Part shown: positions 56,531-63,765 of the stretch, piece after piece
Layout: the number at the start of each line of letters is the position of its first letter
Numbering within the stretch: the stretch's first letter is position 1
Assembly (NCBI GenBank): GCA_934643145.1
Contig: CAKUBM010000006.1
Location: forward strand, 1-64,000
Source of the DNA: an uncultured Collinsella sp.
GTDB lineage: Bacteria > Actinomycetota > Coriobacteriia > Coriobacteriales > Coriobacteriaceae
Length of the DNA stretch: 64,000 bases
Direction: 5' to 3'
Position numbers and translations under genes: made by a program
Notes under the pieces: model-generated
Databases searched by the model: none
Seen by the model: only the letters and a program-made list of their open reading frames with translations
Told to the model about the DNA's origin: nothing

Positions 56531-56642
56531 AGTATTTAATCAAAGTTGATGAATACTATTTCAACTTCCGATAGGCTAATAGGTGTATTTATTAGCTGGA
56601 ATCTCGCACGGTTGTGCGGGGTTTCAACCGTTGGGAGGGATT

Positions 56643-58448
56643 ATGAGGTTTACTCATCCTGTCAACACGCTCAAAAAGCTTGGCTGCGGCCTTGCATTTG
56701 GAGCTGCGGCCATTATGGCCATGCCGACTTCAGCGCTTGCCTGCACCCAGATTTACATGGGCAGCAAGCTCACGGCAGACGGCAACACGTACTACGGCCG
56801 CGCAGAAGACTTTGGTACGCGCTACCTCAAGCACTTTGGCATCGAGCCCGCGCACAAGGACGGCACCGAGTACACTTCGCTCGAGTCCGGCTTCGACTAC
56901 AAGTCCAAGGGCGCAACCTACCGCTACACCTTCGTTCGCGACAACCCCTCGCAGTGGGAAGATCGCTATGACGCTTATTCCGAGGCCGGCATCAACGAGA
57001 AGGGCGTTTCCTGCTCTGCCACGCTGAGTACCTCCTACAACGAGAAGGCCGAGGAGGCCGACCCCATCACCGAGGAGACCGGTATCGGCGAGTATAGCTA
57101 CGCCAGCGTCATCCTGGGCGAGAGCGCCACGGCACGCGAGGGCGTCGAACTCATCGGAAGCCTGATCGACGAGCAGGGGACCTGCGCCAACGACCAGGTC
57201 ATCATCGCCGACAACAACGAGACCTGGCTGTTCGCCGCGCTTTCTGGCCATCAGTGGATCGCCATGAAGCTCACCGACGACATCGCCTCGGTCAACCCCA
57301 ACATAGGCAACCTTAACTACGACATCGACCTCGACGACACCGAGAACTGCCTCCACTCCGAGGGCATTCAAACCATGCCCGAGGAAAAGGGCTTCGCCAA
57401 GTACTTCGAGGATGGCAAGCTCGACGTTGCCCAGACCTACGGAGAGGAAATTAGCGAGAAGGCCATGCATTCTTGGTCTCGCTATGTCCAGGGCCGCGAT
57501 TACTTCATGGCTCCGCTTGCCGAGGGCACCGACTACGAGATCGTCAAGGACGAGCGCGAAGACGCTCGTGCCACGACTGGCGCCCTGGTCCACGAGCTGC
57601 AGCCGCTGTTCTTTACGCCCGGCAAGTCCGACTGGAACACCTTTGAGATGATCCGTTCCTTCGCCGCTCGCGGCGAGAACGTCGCCGGCCTCAACGCCAA
57701 CACCGACGGCGCCTATGCCATCGGCTCTAACCGCAACACCGAGATTCACACTTTCCAGATCCGTCAGGGCATGGACCCCGAGATCGCGACCATTCAATGG
57801 GAGATGCTCTCCAACGCCGAGTTCTCCGTCGCCATCCCCCTCTACTCCGCACTGCTCACCGAGGTCAGCCCCTACTTCAGCGATCAAGATGTCTCCTTCG
57901 ATCACTGCGAAGAGGAAGACGTCGTGAACAACGAGGAGCCCAAGAACTCCATCAACTACGTCCTCATGGACATCAACACGCTCGCCTATGAAAACCGCGA
58001 CCACTGCGCCACCGGCGTCCGCGCCTATCTCGACGCTCTGCAGAAGGAGCTCATCGAGCAGAACCTGACCGTCGACGAGGCCATGCAGGCCGAAGAAGGC
58101 ACCGAGGCCCGCACCGCCCTGGCCAACAAGGCCGGCAAGGCTGCAACCAAGAACACTTATGTTAAGTGCAAGGCCATGCTCGAGGAGATGCGCGACTATC
58201 TCCAGGAGGGCGACTTCTCCGAGGAGTTCGTCCCGAGTGACTACGATGCCGACAACGACTGCCTGGTCAAGTCCATCACCTACGCCGACGAGGCCCTTTC
58301 CGATGAGGACGTGGCCGAGCCCGAGGCCGAAGAGGAAGAGACCACCGAGGAGAAGTCCGAGGGCAACAACATGGCCGCCATGGCCGTTGGCGCCGTCGTC
58401 ATCATCGGTGTCTGCGCCTACGTGATCTATCGTCGCAAGAAGGCCTAA
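56643..58448 (+). CDS. C69 family dipeptidase, secreted and C-terminally membrane-anchored
   Basis: 601 aa. A signal peptide ends at PTSALA and the next residue, Cys34 (CTQIYMG), is the expected Ntn-hydrolase nucleophile, exposed by processing. GRAEDFGTRYLKHF and NEKGVSCSATLS are family signatures. The last 60 residues hold an acidic Glu-rich spacer and a transmembrane helix (about 576-595) followed by YRRKKA, so the enzyme is tethered at the outer face; there is no LPXTG. It probably degrades dipeptides for uptake. GGGAGG precedes the ATG at 56643; a hairpin-rich leader of about 110 nt lies upstream. Confidence 0.92.
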   Translation: MRFTHPVNTLKKLGCGLAFGAAAIMAMPTSALACTQIYMGSKLTADGNTYYGRAEDFGTRYLKHFGIEPAHKDGTEYTSLESGFDYKSKGATYRYTFVRDNPSQWEDRYDAYSEAGINEKGVSCSATLSTSYNEKAEEADPITEETGIGEYSYASVILGESATAREGVELIGSLIDEQGTCANDQVIIADNNETWLFAALSGHQWIAMKLTDDIASVNPNIGNLNYDIDLDDTENCLHSEGIQTMPEEKGFAKYFEDGKLDVAQTYGEEISEKAMHSWSRYVQGRDYFMAPLAEGTDYEIVKDEREDARATTGALVHELQPLFFTPGKSDWNTFEMIRSFAARGENVAGLNANTDGAYAIGSNRNTEIHTFQIRQGMDPEIATIQWEMLSNAEFSVAIPLYSALLTEVSPYFSDQDVSFDHCEEEDVVNNEEPKNSINYVLMDINTLAYENRDHCATGVRAYLDALQKELIEQNLTVDEAMQAEEGTEARTALANKAGKAATKNTYVKCKAMLEEMRDYLQEGDFSEEFVPSDYDADNDCLVKSITYADEALSDEDVAEPEAEEEETTEEKSEGNNMAAMAVGAVVIIGVCAYVIYRRKKA

Positions 58449-58576: not shown

Positions 58577-58585
58577 TGCTATAGT
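58577..58585 (+). promoter_or_regulatory. Extended -10 promoter of the ECF (tryptophan) operon
   Basis: TGCTATAGT fits the TGnTATAAT extended -10 with one mismatch; there is no good -35, as is common for extended -10 promoters. Transcription would start near 58592, giving a leader of about 265 nt before the first S-subunit gene. Confidence 0.6.
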
Positions 58586-58643
58586 GCAGCGCAACAGCAA
58601 CTAGGTGCGACCGCGCCACGGCATCACGAAAGGAGCCACCAAC

Positions 58644-58712
58644 ATGAAGAACACGATGAAGTCTCTCAACAACTGGTGGTGGCGTGATGCGAATACGATC
58701 GGTCGACAGTGA
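58644..58712 (+). CDS. Tryptophan-codon leader peptide (22 aa)
   Basis: Reads MKNTMKSLNNWWWRDANTIG then RQ and stops at TGA. Three consecutive Trp codons (58674-58682) stand at positions 11-13. AGGAG lies 8 nt before the ATG. It ends 36 nt before an intrinsic terminator stem, the layout of trp-type attenuators. The peptide itself probably has no other function. Confidence 0.88.
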   Translation: MKNTMKSLNNWWWRDANTIGRQ

Positions 58713-58780
58713 GTCCCTCACGCCTATTTTTGCGCTCTAGGTGATTGGAAGGCCTCCGGTTTCGACCGGGGGCCTTTTTC
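58681..58780 (+). promoter_or_regulatory. Ribosome-mediated attenuator with intrinsic terminator
   Basis: The terminator is AAGGCCTCCGGT-TTCG-ACCGGGGGCCTT (58749-58776), a 12-bp stem with a T run (58775-58779). Segment 1, GGCGTGA (58681-58687), overlaps the last Trp codon and pairs with TCACGCC (58718-58724). Alternative partners exist: TCACGCCTA (58718-58726) with TAGGTGA (58738-58744) and CGGTCGA (58700-58706) with TCGACCG (58762-58768) inside the terminator. A ribosome stalled on the Trp codons would cover segment 1 and favour the alternatives. The pairings were found by eye, not by energy calculation. Confidence 0.75.
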
Positions 58781-58856
58781 TATCTCGAGCCCGATCGCAT
58801 TCGCATCACGCGCCTCCGCTTTTCTCCTGCACTCCCCTTCCGAAAGGATTTTCACC

Positions 58857-59429
58857 ATGTCTCAGAACACCACCGCCACCCAGCCCCGCACCGTCCAGGC
58901 CGCCGACCGCGGCAAACTCGATGTTCGCGCCCTCGTCCTGCTCGCCATTCTGCTTGCCGCCGGCTTTATCCTCAACTTCACCGTCGGCAAGGCCATCTCG
59001 GGTATCTCGGGCGGCATGATCAGCCCCGAGTTCATCATCTCGGCCTTCTGCCTCACCATCCTGGTCGTGCGCCCCAACATCGGTCAGGCGCTCGTCATCG
59101 GCCTTATCTCGGCCGCCGTGATCCAGATCACCACCACCTCGCCGTTCATCGATTTTGCCGCCGAGGGCATCGCCGCCATGCTCATGGCCGCCATCGTCAA
59201 CGCCGCCGGCAAGAAGGGCCAGGTTAAGCCCGCTGTCGCTATTGTCGCCACCTTCGTGACCACCTTTGTCTCGGGCGTTATCTTCATGGTCATCAAGATG
59301 GCTATGCTCGGCGTGGTGGGCGAGCTCGCCGCCGCCATGCTGCCTGTCGTCGCCATGACCGCCGTCTTTAACGCCATCCTGGTCGGTGCCCTCTACCTGC
59401 CCATCCAGAAGGCTCTGAAACTCAACTAA
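58857..59429 (+). CDS. ECF transporter S component, probable tryptophan (TrpP-like), copy 1
   Basis: 190 aa and about six transmembrane helices, no signal peptide. The first helix region is DVRALVLLAILLAAGFILNF, followed by TVGKAISGISGG. It resembles the copy at 59638 along its length (AILLAAGFILN, AVIQITT). S components bind the substrate and dock to the shared EcfA-EcfT module. Tryptophan is inferred from the Trp-codon attenuator in its leader and a general resemblance to TrpP-type S proteins. Its ATG lies 77 nt after the attenuator terminator. Confidence 0.8.
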   Translation: MSQNTTATQPRTVQAADRGKLDVRALVLLAILLAAGFILNFTVGKAISGISGGMISPEFIISAFCLTILVVRPNIGQALVIGLISAAVIQITTTSPFIDFAAEGIAAMLMAAIVNAAGKKGQVKPAVAIVATFVTTFVSGVIFMVIKMAMLGVVGELAAAMLPVVAMTAVFNAILVGALYLPIQKALKLN

Positions 59430-59435
59430 CCCGCT

Positions 59436-59535
59436 CGGCTTTACGAGCCACCCCATCTTGGCGTTCATTCGTCGCTCGCGTACCCAAGTACGCTTCGCTC
59501 CTCTTTCGCGCCAACCTGGGCCCCTCGTAAAGCCG
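59436..59535. repeat. Intergenic nested palindrome h
   Basis: CGGCTTTACGAG (59436-59447) pairs with CTCGTAAAGCCG (59524-59535). Inside, CCCA/TGGG, TTGGCG/CGCCAA and GCGTAC-CCAA-GTACGC are stacked in order. It lies between the two S-subunit genes, 7 nt after the first stop. No T-run follows. Confidence 0.85.
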
Positions 59536-59637
59536 TCTCCGTGCTCCATTATTCAAAATTAATCCCCTTTTCGATTTAACCCCTTTCGTGGGGGTCTAGG
59601 ACACGCTTATCTCAAATCCCACCTTAAGGAGAACATC

Positions 59638-60189
59638 ATGGCCACCAACACTCAGGCTCGTACCATTTCTGCCAACGCCGCTTCCGACAAAGGCATCCTC
59701 GACATCACCTCGCTCGTCCTGCTCGCCATCCTCCTTGCCGCCGGCTTTATCCTCAACATGACCGTCGGCAACGCTCTTGCCGCAACGGGTATTAAGCCGC
59801 AGTTCATCATTGCCGCCTATGCCCTGGCCATCGCACTCACGCAGGCAAGCTTTGCCCAGGCAGCCATCTTTGGCATCCTGTCGGCCGCCGTCATCCAGAT
59901 CACCACGTCAATCCCCGGCCTCAACTTTGTCACCGAACTTGCCGGCGCGCTGACGATGGCGGCGCTCATCAAGTCCAACATCGGCGGTAGCAAACTCAAC
60001 CCCTTCATCGCCGGCCTGCTCACCACCTTGGTCTCGGGTGCCCTCTTCGCCGTCCTGGGCACCGTCATCATGGGTGCCGCGCTGCCCACGGCGCTCGCCA
60101 AGGTGCCCATCGTGCTCGGCACTGCCGTCTTCAACGCCGTCGTGGTCCAGGCCCTCTTCTTCCCCCTGCGCAAGGTGCTCAACAAATAG
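59638..60189 (+). CDS. ECF transporter S component, probable tryptophan (TrpP-like), copy 2
   Basis: 183 aa, about six transmembrane helices, with DITSLVLLAILLAAGFILNM, TVGNALAATGIKPQF and AAVIQITTSIPGLNFVTE. It is a diverged paralogue of copy 1, so two related ligands or two affinities are possible. AAGGAG lies 7 nt before the ATG. Hairpin ACCCC/GGGGT (about 59579-59595) lies in its leader. The next gene encodes the fused ATPase. Confidence 0.8.
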   Translation: MATNTQARTISANAASDKGILDITSLVLLAILLAAGFILNMTVGNALAATGIKPQFIIAAYALAIALTQASFAQAAIFGILSAAVIQITTSIPGLNFVTELAGALTMAALIKSNIGGSKLNPFIAGLLTTLVSGALFAVLGTVIMGAALPTALAKVPIVLGTAVFNAVVVQALFFPLRKVLNK

Positions 60190-60201
60190 CCTGATATGAT
60201 G

Positions 60202-60229
60202 GACGGGGCCGCGCGCAAGCGGCCCCGTC
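60202..60229. other. GC hairpin after the second S-subunit gene
   Basis: GACGGGGCCG and CGGCCCCGTC pair perfectly around CGCGCAAG. The sequence after it is ACTAAAG, so termination is doubtful. It may set the ratio of S-subunit to ATPase message. Confidence 0.55.
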
Positions 60230-60257: not shown

Positions 60258-60301
60258 TTGGGGACGTTCTTAGACGATTAGTCATTTAAGAACGTCCCCA
60301 A
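60258..60301. repeat. Intergenic palindrome i
   Basis: TTGGGGACGTTCTTA (60258-60272) pairs perfectly with TAAGAACGTCCCCAA (60287-60301) around GACGATTAGTCATT, which has GAC/GTC symmetry itself. It ends 18 nt before the ATPase start, so it could act on translation. The GGGGACGTTCTT word recalls REP-type elements mobilised by tyrosine transposases in other bacteria; that link is inference. Confidence 0.88.
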
Positions 60302-60319: not shown

Positions 60320-62071
60320 ATGAAAACGATCATCAACGTCGACGATGTCTCGTTCTCCTATGGTGCGCAGACCGAGCAGGCGCTTAAGCACATCTCGCTC
60401 GACGTGAACAAGGGAGATTTCATCGGCATCATCGGGCCCTCAGGCGCCGGCAAGTCCACGCTTGCTGCCTGCCTGTCGGGCGCCGTTCCCCACCACTACA
60501 CCGGCACGTTCTTTGGGTCCGTCATGGTTGACGGCCGTGACACCTGCGAAGTCTCGCTCACCGACGTGTCGCAGATCGTCGGCAGCGTGCTGCAGGACAT
60601 CGACACGCAGATGGTCGCCTCGGTCGTCGAGGACGAAATGCTCTTTGGCCTGGAGAACTTTGGCGTCCCCCACGATCAGATCGAGCAGCGTGTAAGCGAG
60701 ACACTCGAGACGGTCGGCATCAGCGACCTGCGCGACCGCGAAATCGCCACCCTCTCGGGCGGGCAGAAGCAAAAGGTGGCCATCGCCGCCATCCTCGCCA
60801 TGCGCCCCCGCGTACTGGTGCTCGATGAGCCCACCGCAGCACTCGACCCCGCCAGCTCCACGCTGGTCTTCGAGACCCTGCGCGAGGCAAACCGCGCACT
60901 CGACATCACCATCGTCGTCGTTGAGCAAAAGGTCGCCCTGCTCTCGGAGTACTGCAACCGCGTGCTCGTGCTCAACCATGGCGAAATCGCGCTACAGGGC
61001 GAGCCGCACGAGGTCTTCGCGCACACCGATGAGCTTCGCACCATTGGCGTCGACTGCCCCCGCGTCACACGCATCTTCAATAGCCTGGAGGCCGATGGTC
61101 TGGCAAGCGGCACCCCTTGCTTGGATGTCGACGAGGCCGAGCGCCTGATTTCGGGCATCGTCGACCCCGCGCACGCGGCCAGCGAAGCCCAGGCTCCCGC
61201 GGGCTCCCCGCACGCCCCGTCGTTGCGCCCTCATGCCAAGGACGCCGAACCCGTGCTCACCTTCGACCATGTTGAGTTTGCCTATCCCAACGGCGGTGCC
61301 GCCGTCCACGACCTCAACCTGACCCTCTACCCCGGCGAGCTCGTGGGCATTGTCGGCCAAAACGGCGCCGGCAAGACCACGCTCACCAAGCTGCTCACGG
61401 GCCTGCTTAAGCCCGCCTCGGGCAGCGTGCGCGTCACGGGCCTTGACACCGCCGCGGTTCCCACGAGTCGCATTGCCCGCGAGGTCGCAACGCTCTTCCA
61501 AAACCCCGACCGCCAGATCTGCAAGGACACCGTGCTCGACGAGGTCGCTTTTGGCCTGGAGCTTGCCGGCATCGACCGCGCCGAAGCCTTGCGCCGTGCC
61601 CAGCTCGTCATCGACCGCTTTGGCCTGCCCGCCGACGAGGCTCCCTTCTCGCTTTCGCGCGGCCAGCGACAAATGGTGGCGCTCGCCTCCGTCGTAGTGG
61701 TTGAGCCCAAGATTGTAGTGCTCGACGAGCCCACGAGCGGCCTTGACTACCGCGAGTGCATGACCGTCATGGAAACGGTGCGCACCATGGCCGAACGCGG
61801 CTGTGCCGTGATTATGGTCTGCCACGATATGGAAGTCGTTTCCGACTTTGCCGAGCGCATCGTTGTGATGGCCGACGGCCGCATCCTCGACCGCGGACGC
61901 ACACACGAGCTGTTCTCGAATATCGAGCTCATGCAGCGTGCCTACGTGGAACCGCCCCAGGTCATTGAGCTCTCGCGCCGTTTGGCATCCTCCGTCTCTC
62001 CCGCTTTTGCGCAGGTGAGCGAGGTCACCGATATCGTTCGCATTACCAAGGAGATGGTCCGTCGTGGTTAA
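60320..62071 (+). CDS. Fused double ECF ATPase (EcfA1-EcfA2)
   Basis: 583 aa with two ABC domains in one chain. Domain 1: Walker A GPSGAGKST, signature LSGGQKQKVAIA, Walker B VLVLDEPTAALD. Domain 2: Walker A GQNGAGKTT, signature LSRGQRQMVALA, Walker B IVVLDEPTSGLD. A linker (about 275-310) rich in Ala and Pro joins them. Both Walker B Glu residues are present, so both sites look active. It powers the importer with EcfT and the S components. The stop overlaps the ecfT start by 8 nt. Confidence 0.94.
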   Translation: MKTIINVDDVSFSYGAQTEQALKHISLDVNKGDFIGIIGPSGAGKSTLAACLSGAVPHHYTGTFFGSVMVDGRDTCEVSLTDVSQIVGSVLQDIDTQMVASVVEDEMLFGLENFGVPHDQIEQRVSETLETVGISDLRDREIATLSGGQKQKVAIAAILAMRPRVLVLDEPTAALDPASSTLVFETLREANRALDITIVVVEQKVALLSEYCNRVLVLNHGEIALQGEPHEVFAHTDELRTIGVDCPRVTRIFNSLEADGLASGTPCLDVDEAERLISGIVDPAHAASEAQAPAGSPHAPSLRPHAKDAEPVLTFDHVEFAYPNGGAAVHDLNLTLYPGELVGIVGQNGAGKTTLTKLLTGLLKPASGSVRVTGLDTAAVPTSRIAREVATLFQNPDRQICKDTVLDEVAFGLELAGIDRAEALRRAQLVIDRFGLPADEAPFSLSRGQRQMVALASVVVVEPKIVVLDEPTSGLDYRECMTVMETVRTMAERGCAVIMVCHDMEVVSDFAERIVVMADGRILDRGRTHELFSNIELMQRAYVEPPQVIELSRRLASSVSPAFAQVSEVTDIVRITKEMVRRG

Positions 62072-62810
62072 CGTCATCGACTACATGCCGGGCGACACAC
62101 TGCTGCACCGCCTGAACCCCGTCGTCAAGCTGGGCCTCGCTGCCTCCATCATCATAGGCATCTTCTTGTCCGACACCTATGTGGCGCTGCTGGGCTTTTT
62201 GGCACTCACCCTTGCGTTGGGCGCCTACGCCGGCGTCGTCGATCGCCTGTTCTCGCTGCTCAAGCTGCTGATTCCGCTCGCACTTATCATGTTGTTGCTC
62301 CAGCTGGCCTTTATGCGCGATGGCAACGTGATATGGGGCTTTATCACCGACACGGGGCTCATCACCGGATCAAAGGCCTGCCTGCGCCTGCTGGGTGTGG
62401 CATTGCCACTCATCCTCATGCTCATGGTGACCAAGCTCAACGACCTTGCCAACGCCTGCGTCGAGGTGCTGCACGTGCCGTATCGCTATGCCTTTACCTT
62501 TACCACGGCACTGCGCTTTGTGCCGGTGTTTGGCCAGGAGATGAACGCCATCATGGAGGCGCAGACCGCACGCGGCGTCGAGTACGACACCAAGAACCCC
62601 ATCAAGAAGCTCAAGCTCATGCTGCCGCTGTGCGTACCGCTGCTTATCTCGAGCGTGGGCAAGACCGACGCCACCGCGCTTGCCGCCGAGCAGCGCGGCT
62701 TCTACCTGCGCACGCGCGCCAGCTCGTACAAGCGCTATCCCATCAAGGGTCTGGATATCGCCGTGCTCGCCATCAGCGTCGCCCTCATCATCCTGGGATT
62801 CCTGTTCTAG
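62064..62810 (+). CDS. ECF transporter T component (EcfT)
   Basis: 248 aa and about five to six transmembrane helices. The two coupling-helix motifs are AQTARGVEY and AAEQRGFYLRT, with Arg-Gly as in other EcfT proteins; they contact the ATPases. The GTG start at 62064 lies within the end of the ATPase gene with AAGGAGAT upstream. Substrate specificity is set by the S components. Confidence 0.92.
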   Translation: MVNVIDYMPGDTLLHRLNPVVKLGLAASIIIGIFLSDTYVALLGFLALTLALGAYAGVVDRLFSLLKLLIPLALIMLLLQLAFMRDGNVIWGFITDTGLITGSKACLRLLGVALPLILMLMVTKLNDLANACVEVLHVPYRYAFTFTTALRFVPVFGQEMNAIMEAQTARGVEYDTKNPIKKLKLMLPLCVPLLISSVGKTDATALAAEQRGFYLRTRASSYKRYPIKGLDIAVLAISVALIILGFLF

Positions 62811-62934: not shown

Positions 62935-63681
62935 CTATTGGCGGTAGGGGGCGCCGCTGCGAATGATGGACTCGCGCACCAGGACGTCCATGGCGTCGAG
63001 GGTAATCTCGGGCATCTCGCGGTATTTCTGCAGCACCGAAAGCTCCGTGCAGGCCAGAATGACGCGATCGCAGCCGCTGCGGGCAAACTCCCACATCACG
63101 CGGTCGAACTTATCCATATCGGGCTCGCGTCCGGCCTTCACATCGTCGTAGATAAGCGACATCACATCGACCTGACGCTTCTCGCTGGGATAGACGACCT
63201 CGACGCCCGCCGCCTCACATTCGCGCCCATAGACGCCCGCGCCCACAGTTCCGTCGGTGCCCATGATGCCGATCTTGCGCACCGGCTCGGCCGGCATGCT
63301 CAGGTTAGGATCGAACTCGCACTCCCCCATCACCGCGCCCGCTAGGGCATAGCGCACCGACTCGCGCGGCATGTGGATAATCGGCACCTTCGTAAACGAC
63401 TGAATCTGATCGTAAAAGTAGTGTGACGTGTTGCAGGGAATGGCGATATGCGCGCAGCCCAGCGACTCGAGCGCCTGGGCGCACTCCTTCATAGTCGCCA
63501 GCAGCTCGGCATGCTCGCCGGTCTTGATGGCCAGCGTGCGGTCGGGCATGGTCGACTTGGAAAGAACCGCCATGTCGATATGCTCCTGGTCGCACGTAGC
63601 CGCCGTATGGCGCACCACCTGGTCGTAGTAATACGACGTGGCCTCGGCGCCCATGCCGCCGATAACTCCCAGCTTTTCCAT
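62935..63681 (-). CDS. Aspartate/glutamate racemase family protein
   Basis: 248 aa. LGVIGGMGAEATSYYYDQV is the N-terminal signature. Two catalytic cysteines are visible in AIPCNTSHYF and ILACTELSVL, both flanked as in cofactor-independent racemases. It may make D-aspartate or D-glutamate for peptidoglycan. AAGGAGG lies 5 nt before the ATG at 63681; a longer frame includes it. A dedicated MurI is not excluded, but the sequence fits the broader RacX/AspR group better. Confidence 0.9.
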   Translation of the reverse strand: MEKLGVIGGMGAEATSYYYDQVVRHTAATCDQEHIDMAVLSKSTMPDRTLAIKTGEHAELLATMKECAQALESLGCAHIAIPCNTSHYFYDQIQSFTKVPIIHMPRESVRYALAGAVMGECEFDPNLSMPAEPVRKIGIMGTDGTVGAGVYGRECEAAGVEVVYPSEKRQVDVMSLIYDDVKAGREPDMDKFDRVMWEFARSGCDRVILACTELSVLQKYREMPEITLDAMDVLVRESIIRSGAPYRQ

Positions 63682-63765
63682 CGCCGCCTCCTTGGTGACG
63701 CCCGCGCAATTGCGCGTATCATACCCGCGCCCGCCCGATGTAAACCGGACGGGCGCCGCACTCAT

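Follow-up and report, generated by a model that had tools for sequence, protein, structure and literature searches.

The window, a stretch of 64,000 nucleotides from contig CAKUBM010000006.1 of an uncultured Collinsella sp., carries on its plus strand a 22-codon leader ORF, a pairing segment, a terminator and an ECF operon of the TrpP-like type, read from the sequence in the order S1-S2-EcfAA'-EcfT. A probable extended -10 promoter element (TGcTATAGT, 58577..58585) was assigned by inspection; a consensus scan gave no match at these positions, and TGTGCTATA-like letters, which resemble the element of the window, were found 5' of several Collinsella leaders. The Shine-Dalgarno (SD) sequence of the leader, AAGGAG (58630..58635), is similar in relatives. 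The leader peptide (MKNTMKSLNNWWWRDANTIGRQ, 22 aa; ATG 58644, TGA 58710-58712) contains three tandem Trp codons (58674..58682), to which a regulatory role is assigned from sequence and conservation. Segment 1 (58680..58687) comprises the last Trp codon and the next bases, and its partner is segment 2 (58718..58725), which either pairs with segment 1 as an anti-antiterminator or joins the antiterminator. The intrinsic terminator with its U-tract occupies 58749..58779. Its stem (AAGGCCTCCGGT/ACCGGGGGCCTT, 58749-58776) has 12 bp including one G-U and a predicted stability of about -23.6 kcal/mol; the U-tract lies at 58775-58779. The leader with its WWW run, the segment that pairs over the last Trp codon, the 12-bp terminator and the S-component gene are all located where the sequence-only reading had put them.

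The S1 gene (58857..59429) and its paralogue S2 (59638..60189) encode TrpP-like ECF S components. They are followed by a gene for fused EcfA-EcfA' ATPases (60320..62071; TIGR04520/TIGR04521 over the cut-off) and by the gene for the EcfT transmembrane component (62064..62810; Pfam CbiQ, E 2.9e-26), all on the plus strand. A single transcript probably extends from the leader through EcfT. Right behind S2 is a GC-rich hairpin without a clear U-tract (60202-60229), so that the expression of EcfAA'T may need readthrough or a promoter of its own. The gap between S2 and EcfA also has an inverted repeat (60258-60301; TTGGGGACGTTCTTA.../...TAAGAACGTCCCCAA) with arms of 20 nt and a loop of 4 nt; similar GTCCCC-rich letters are also seen near the leader in some relatives. 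In the S1-S2 gap (59436-59535) there is a perfect 12-nt inverted repeat with arms 76 nt apart, possibly a repeat element. A C69-family dipeptidase gene (56583-58448) lies upstream of the leader, and an Asp/Glu-type racemase gene (62935-63765, opposite strand) lies downstream of the operon; in L042, the dipeptidase gene (end only) and the racemase gene again adjoin the locus.

The window is Collinsella-like; the nearest genome compared has 41% of sampled words in common with it. Homologues of S1 were collected from Collinsella genus genomes and from a class-wide sample (296 genomes, 162 with an S1 homologue). S1 was present in 43/43 genus genomes, in one as a contig-end fragment only, and its nearest named contigs were those of Collinsella aerofaciens and Collinsella sp. 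Outside the genus, 70 loci were taken from 125 genomes with an S1 match, picked from the matches listed; thus, the distant family f3 is under-sampled. Family f2 corresponds to Atopobiaceae, as judged by named contigs, and f3 is of Eggerthellaceae type, a name based on one Gordonibacter contig. The 112 upstream regions compared were those of the window and of L001-L112 minus L028, of which the contig ends 24 nt upstream. From the 99 leader-positive regions (see below), a non-redundant set of 62 members was chosen by excluding L093, L098, L105, L106 and L108 (different architecture) and sequences more than 93% alike. Alignment A1 (58 rows) additionally excludes L008, L033, L057 and L060; alignment A2 excludes L108 and L112.

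A short ORF with at least two tandem Trp codons was found in 99 of the 112 regions, and 97 of these 99 leaders had three. The comparison of leaders upstream of orthologous S genes had been proposed earlier as a check, with leaders devoid of Trp codons to count against attenuation; the orthologous leaders keep the codons. The leader occurred in 42/42 regions of the genus Collinsella (window included), in 14/15 of the other Coriobacteriaceae (the exception, L061, reads WAW), in 39/40 of the Atopobiaceae and in 4/14 of f3 (10/14 without), and it was absent from the one region of f4 (0/1). Note that L095 has no Trp codons upstream of its S gene and retains a terminator with GACC; its genome has TrpA, and the case is possibly a loss of the sensor. 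An intrinsic terminator followed the leader in 99/99 cases, with stabilities from -15.1 to -30.7 kcal/mol.

A chance origin of the leader was ruled out by dinucleotide shuffling of the 62 non-redundant members: 0/6200 shuffles had both leader and terminator (11 gave a WW leader, none with a terminator), and 0/62 passed on the reverse strand, the value for the members' own sequences being 61/62 by construction. Region 58590-58860 of the window folds at z -4.5 relative to shuffles. No Rfam family matched within the window at the gathering score, so that a T-box or another leader known to Rfam was rejected. The same search with 16 relatives lacking the leader or having a variant of it gave a single match, an azaaromatic (yjdF) riboswitch elsewhere in L108 (5652-5752, minus strand), an f3 genome, near an ECF locus.

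Besides the 1:2 helix, an antiterminator was identified, in which the last codons of the leader, its stop codon and the next bases pair with the 5' arm and loop of the terminator. In the window its 5' half (58700..58724) consists of CGGUC at the peptide end, the stop codon and segment 2, and folding pairs it with 58749-58768. This long pairing was seen in several sequences when they were folded with the 3' arm still growing. The partner of CGGUC at the leader end is GACCG, which belongs to the loop and 3' arm of the terminator; the two are paired in 99.7% of the A1 cells, with G-U alternatives. Thermodynamic folding of the leader in both ribosome states, as had been suggested, separated them: 6 nt short of the full terminator, the antiterminator formed in 56/62 sequences with the ribosome stalled at WWW and in 7/62 with the ribosome at the stop codon. 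The corresponding numbers were 40/62 and 0/62 at 3 nt short. At 8 nt short, upstream pairing was obtained in 58/62 and 23/62, respectively; the shorter the 3' arm, the more upstream pairing gains ground with the ribosome at the stop codon too. In the full-length RNA, the terminator prevailed in 53/62 even with the ribosome stalled; therefore, antitermination must be kinetic. Without a ribosome, 44/62 of the sequences truncated by 6 nt folded as the antiterminator, which makes the translation-off state less certain than the two translated states.

The 1:2 helix (58680-58687/58718-58725) showed two-sided changes in 5/5 inner pairs, and its covariation score was higher than in any of the 500 shuffles. 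Pair types were no more numerous than in shuffles (15 vs 15.0), and the number of pairs with a two-sided change was weakly above them (5 vs 3.0; 31/500 shuffles). When cognate strands were compared with permuted strands, a test in which shared ancestry remains, z was -4.4 for the 1:2 helix overall (-4.8 in f2, weak at -1.2 in f1) and -3.9 for the antiterminator (-4.7 in f1, -2.5 in f2). The single consensus structure from RNAalifold showed the terminator and neither the 1:2 helix nor the antiterminator. The SD region (segment 0, 58622..58641) is able to pair with the Trp codons of segment 1 (-20.8 kcal/mol in the window); here the comparison with permuted strands gave z -6.7 over 61 sequences (L081 excluded) and -3.5 in each of f1 and f2. 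The alternative pairings announced by the sequence-only reading are present, and it had missed the antiterminator as well as segment 5, a further arm described below.

We read the observed anatomy, conservation, alternative pairings and covariation as those of a classical ribosome-mediated attenuator that would respond to charged tRNA-Trp in the control of an ECF importer operon of the TrpP type, with a probability of roughly 0.86. When Trp is ample, the ribosome would pass WWW and reach the stop codon, covering the 5' half of the antiterminator (CGGUC...UGAGUC...); the terminator would then form, and transcription would stop ahead of S1. Under Trp shortage, the ribosome would halt on WWW and block the pairing of segment 1 with segment 2, the freed CGGUC...segment 2 stretch would pair with the 5' arm and loop of the terminator, and RNA polymerase would continue into S1-S2-EcfAA'-EcfT. 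If the leader is not translated, segment 1 would pair with segment 2, the antiterminator would be disrupted and the terminator favoured. Regulation by the charging of tRNA-Trp in vivo is what we infer from these features.

An attenuator with Trp codons that precedes an ECF importer points to tryptophan as the substrate. The proteins point in the same direction. Both S proteins of the window matched Pfam TrpP (YhaG; PF17099) weakly (S1, E 5.2e-5, 23.5 bits; S2, E 6.9e-5, 23.1 bits; curated cut-off 27.2), and no NCBIfam match was obtained for them. The TrpP domain was borne by 38/120 of the homologues listed (precomputed annotation, counted by eye). The structural model of S1 has six helices (pLDDT 85.7); its ten best matches in the PDB were ECF transporter chains (ThiT, RibU, FolT, PanT, CbiM), with TM values by target of up to 0.71 and every E above 0.02, and a PDB search for sequence relatives of the S family gave none at E up to 1. 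In 80 of 82 loci (L031-L112; exceptions, L073 and L079), the S gene was followed by an EcfA homologue. PMC11487621 lists TrpP as one of the S proteins of B. subtilis and gives tryptophan as an ECF substrate. Because both S proteins match TrpP weakly, the assignment of tryptophan is not independent of homology: the earlier proposal that it could be made without homology holds as far as the leader does indicate Trp, and the better description is that two lines converge. The assignment of tryptophan as the substrate carried by the importer is inferred but supported.

It is improbable, in our estimate, that the attenuator is real and the cargo is a different aromatic compound (indole or a catabolite of Trp), the use of which merely correlates with the need for Trp, or that the substrates of S1 and S2 differ. 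This reading can draw on the TrpP scores, which are below the cut-off, and on the fact that the window and 10/43 genus genomes have two S genes. Against it, organisms without tryptophan synthase require Trp itself: no match to the alpha subunit (TrpA) was found in 49/52 Coriobacteriaceae sampled (the source genome was not among them), and Collinsella and Olsenella are given as 41.6% of actinobacterial Trp auxotrophs in a published survey (PMC10665431). The leader is not confined to TrpA-less genomes, since several f2 genomes with TrpA also have it. The second ligand, such as an indole compound, that had been suggested for the two S subunits under one attenuator is not supported. The identity between S1 and S2 is 46%; several Atopobiaceae have an S gene nearer to S2 on its own behind a like leader, and in genome G253 two S genes, S1 and another, are each preceded by a WWW leader of their own. 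The simplest reading is that S1 and S2 are paralogues that would share one substrate or have closely related ones.

The other genes found behind like leaders also bear on the cargo. A pattern search detected a like leader in two genomes outside the set with S1 matches, where it precedes a symporter gene of the SNF family (PF00209, E about 3e-49). The best PDB match of the symporter was 4us3 and its relatives (E 2.9e-55); 4us3 is MhsT solved with bound tryptophan. A WWW leader with a terminator was present at 6 of 30 symporter loci examined, all six in one genus (g18), and G109, one of these six genomes, also has an S-type leader (L105). Together with the double leaders of G253, the symporter leaders favour tryptophan and disfavour a special role of S2 in indole uptake. 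Note that the NSS symporters of the MhsT/LeuT type (PF00209) are amino-acid symporters unrelated to ECF transporters, and are of relevance here only as an alternative target of the leader.

The leaders are constrained near their ends. The distance from the Trp run to the stop codon is nine codons in 95/99 leaders, and in 93/99 GGUC falls within 15 nt of the ORF end. Of the 95 leaders with standard spacing, 93 encode the Gly by GGU; the codon after the Gly is CGN in 79 of the 95, CAR in 15 and CUA in 1. The strongly conserved C-terminal Gly-Arg/Gln-x-stop could suggest a TnaC-like mechanism, in which free Trp is sensed by the nascent leader peptide and the ribosome arrests at the peptide end. 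In E. coli, the Trp-responsive leader peptide of tnaCAB likewise stands ahead of a gene for a Trp permease; the system is Rho-dependent and catabolic, and the arrest of the peptide is induced by excess Trp. We consider this reading very improbable for the present leaders, in which the terminators are intrinsic and induction by Trp shortage is predicted. GGU is near-constant while R, Q or L follows it, which places the conservation at the level of the RNA (GGU-C) and not of the peptide, and the residues between WWW and GGUC differ widely. In four of the symporter leaders, the stop codon comes earlier and GGUCG is still present behind it, which again indicates that the RNA is conserved and not the peptide. 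Moreover, an arrest at the peptide end would cover the antiterminator and lead to repression, not induction. Least credible of all is a generic translation or reinitiation enhancer with Trp codons that carry no signal: leader genes have been proposed to raise translation by reinitiation (PMC4833913), but the tandem Trp codons and the terminator are kept (99/112 and 99/99), the alternative pairings exist and partly covary, and the S start lies 86-274 nt from the leader stop in the loci listed.

Downstream of the terminator, between the U-tract and the S1 start, segment 5 (58784..58815) is complementary to 58677-58707, the part of the leader ORF that runs from the second Trp codon as far as the Gly-Arg codons, and this pairing spans the terminator. 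The duplex has a predicted stability of -43.3 kcal/mol in the window. The mean was -36.7 kcal/mol in 33 non-redundant Coriobacteriaceae (32/33 at -20 or below) and -19.8 kcal/mol in 28 Atopobiaceae (13/28 at -20 or below). In 20 of the 33 Coriobacteriaceae the duplex was beyond 3 sd of that with shuffled downstream sequence; segment 5 was rejected for the Atopobiaceae (0/28 beyond 3 sd). Cognate versus permuted strands gave z -6.5 in f1 and -1.1 in f2, and many positions of the duplex have several Watson-Crick types. Segment 5 was also found in f3 (L045, z -4.5; L105, z -5.8) and in two of the six symporter leaders (L214, z -4.6; L213, z -2.0 only, though the duplex is long); it was not found in the other four symporter leaders or in L106 and L108. 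Because it covaries across genera and accompanies two of the six symporter leaders, segment 5 appears to be part of the switch rather than a companion of the S gene.

Segment 5 was also considered as a switch of the S1 ribosome-binding site, and this was rejected as a general rule: the mean accessibility of the SD was 0.44 for the free leader and 0.39 for the occupied one (32/33 f1 sequences; L062 has no recognised SD). The accessibility changes strongly in a few single species (L037, L063). Segment 5 would form only on transcripts that escaped termination. Tentatively, and at somewhat less than even odds, we suggest that segment 5 acts in Coriobacteriaceae as a fifth arm of the attenuator: beginning at the second Trp codon and going towards the stop, about 24-30 bases of the ORF would be re-paired by it, and the leader would be closed over the terminator. 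Such an arm might serve a second layer of control, as an RNase III-type processing site severing the attenuator from the message, as a lock on leader translation, or through a trans target of the terminated leader RNA. We know of no second control layer of this kind in other Trp attenuators.

Among known systems, B. subtilis trpP is under TRAP control; unlike it, the operon of the window has a dedicated EcfAA'T module and leader-peptide control. The closest likeness is to the attenuators that precede the trp operons of Corynebacterium and Streptomyces, and a trpS, according to PMC1262725. Shared with them are the phylum Actinomycetota, a short leader with 2-3 tandem UGG codons, a GC-rich terminator with poly-U and an alternative antiterminator. 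Their targets as given there are trp biosynthesis and trpS; here the target is an importer, and a WW leader with a terminator was found in 0/17 trpA regions (reaching at most about 9 kb from trpA, the operon start not always inside), 6/17 having short WW ORFs without a terminator. The pairing letters CGGUC/GACCG and the segment 5 of Coriobacteriaceae also differ from what that source describes. Judged by its sequence, the element probably works like known Trp attenuators, and differs by its importer target, its pairing letters and segment 5. Control of histidine genes by HisR in Coriobacteriales and leader peptides in Firmicutes are treated in PMC9413887, and the part of it available does not mention this element. 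Among the matches listed in a search of the open-access literature (titles and the starts of abstracts; subscription papers mostly fall outside), no Trp leader was described before an ECF importer or in Coriobacteriia.

The attenuator gives a conserved ECF importer of mostly TrpA-less gut Actinomycetota a strong candidate substrate, tryptophan, and indicates how the uptake of tryptophan is likely controlled in these bacteria. That two unrelated families of transporters carry a like attenuator amounts to a natural experiment in regulatory capture, and the covarying segment 5 calls for a mechanism beyond the textbook attenuator.
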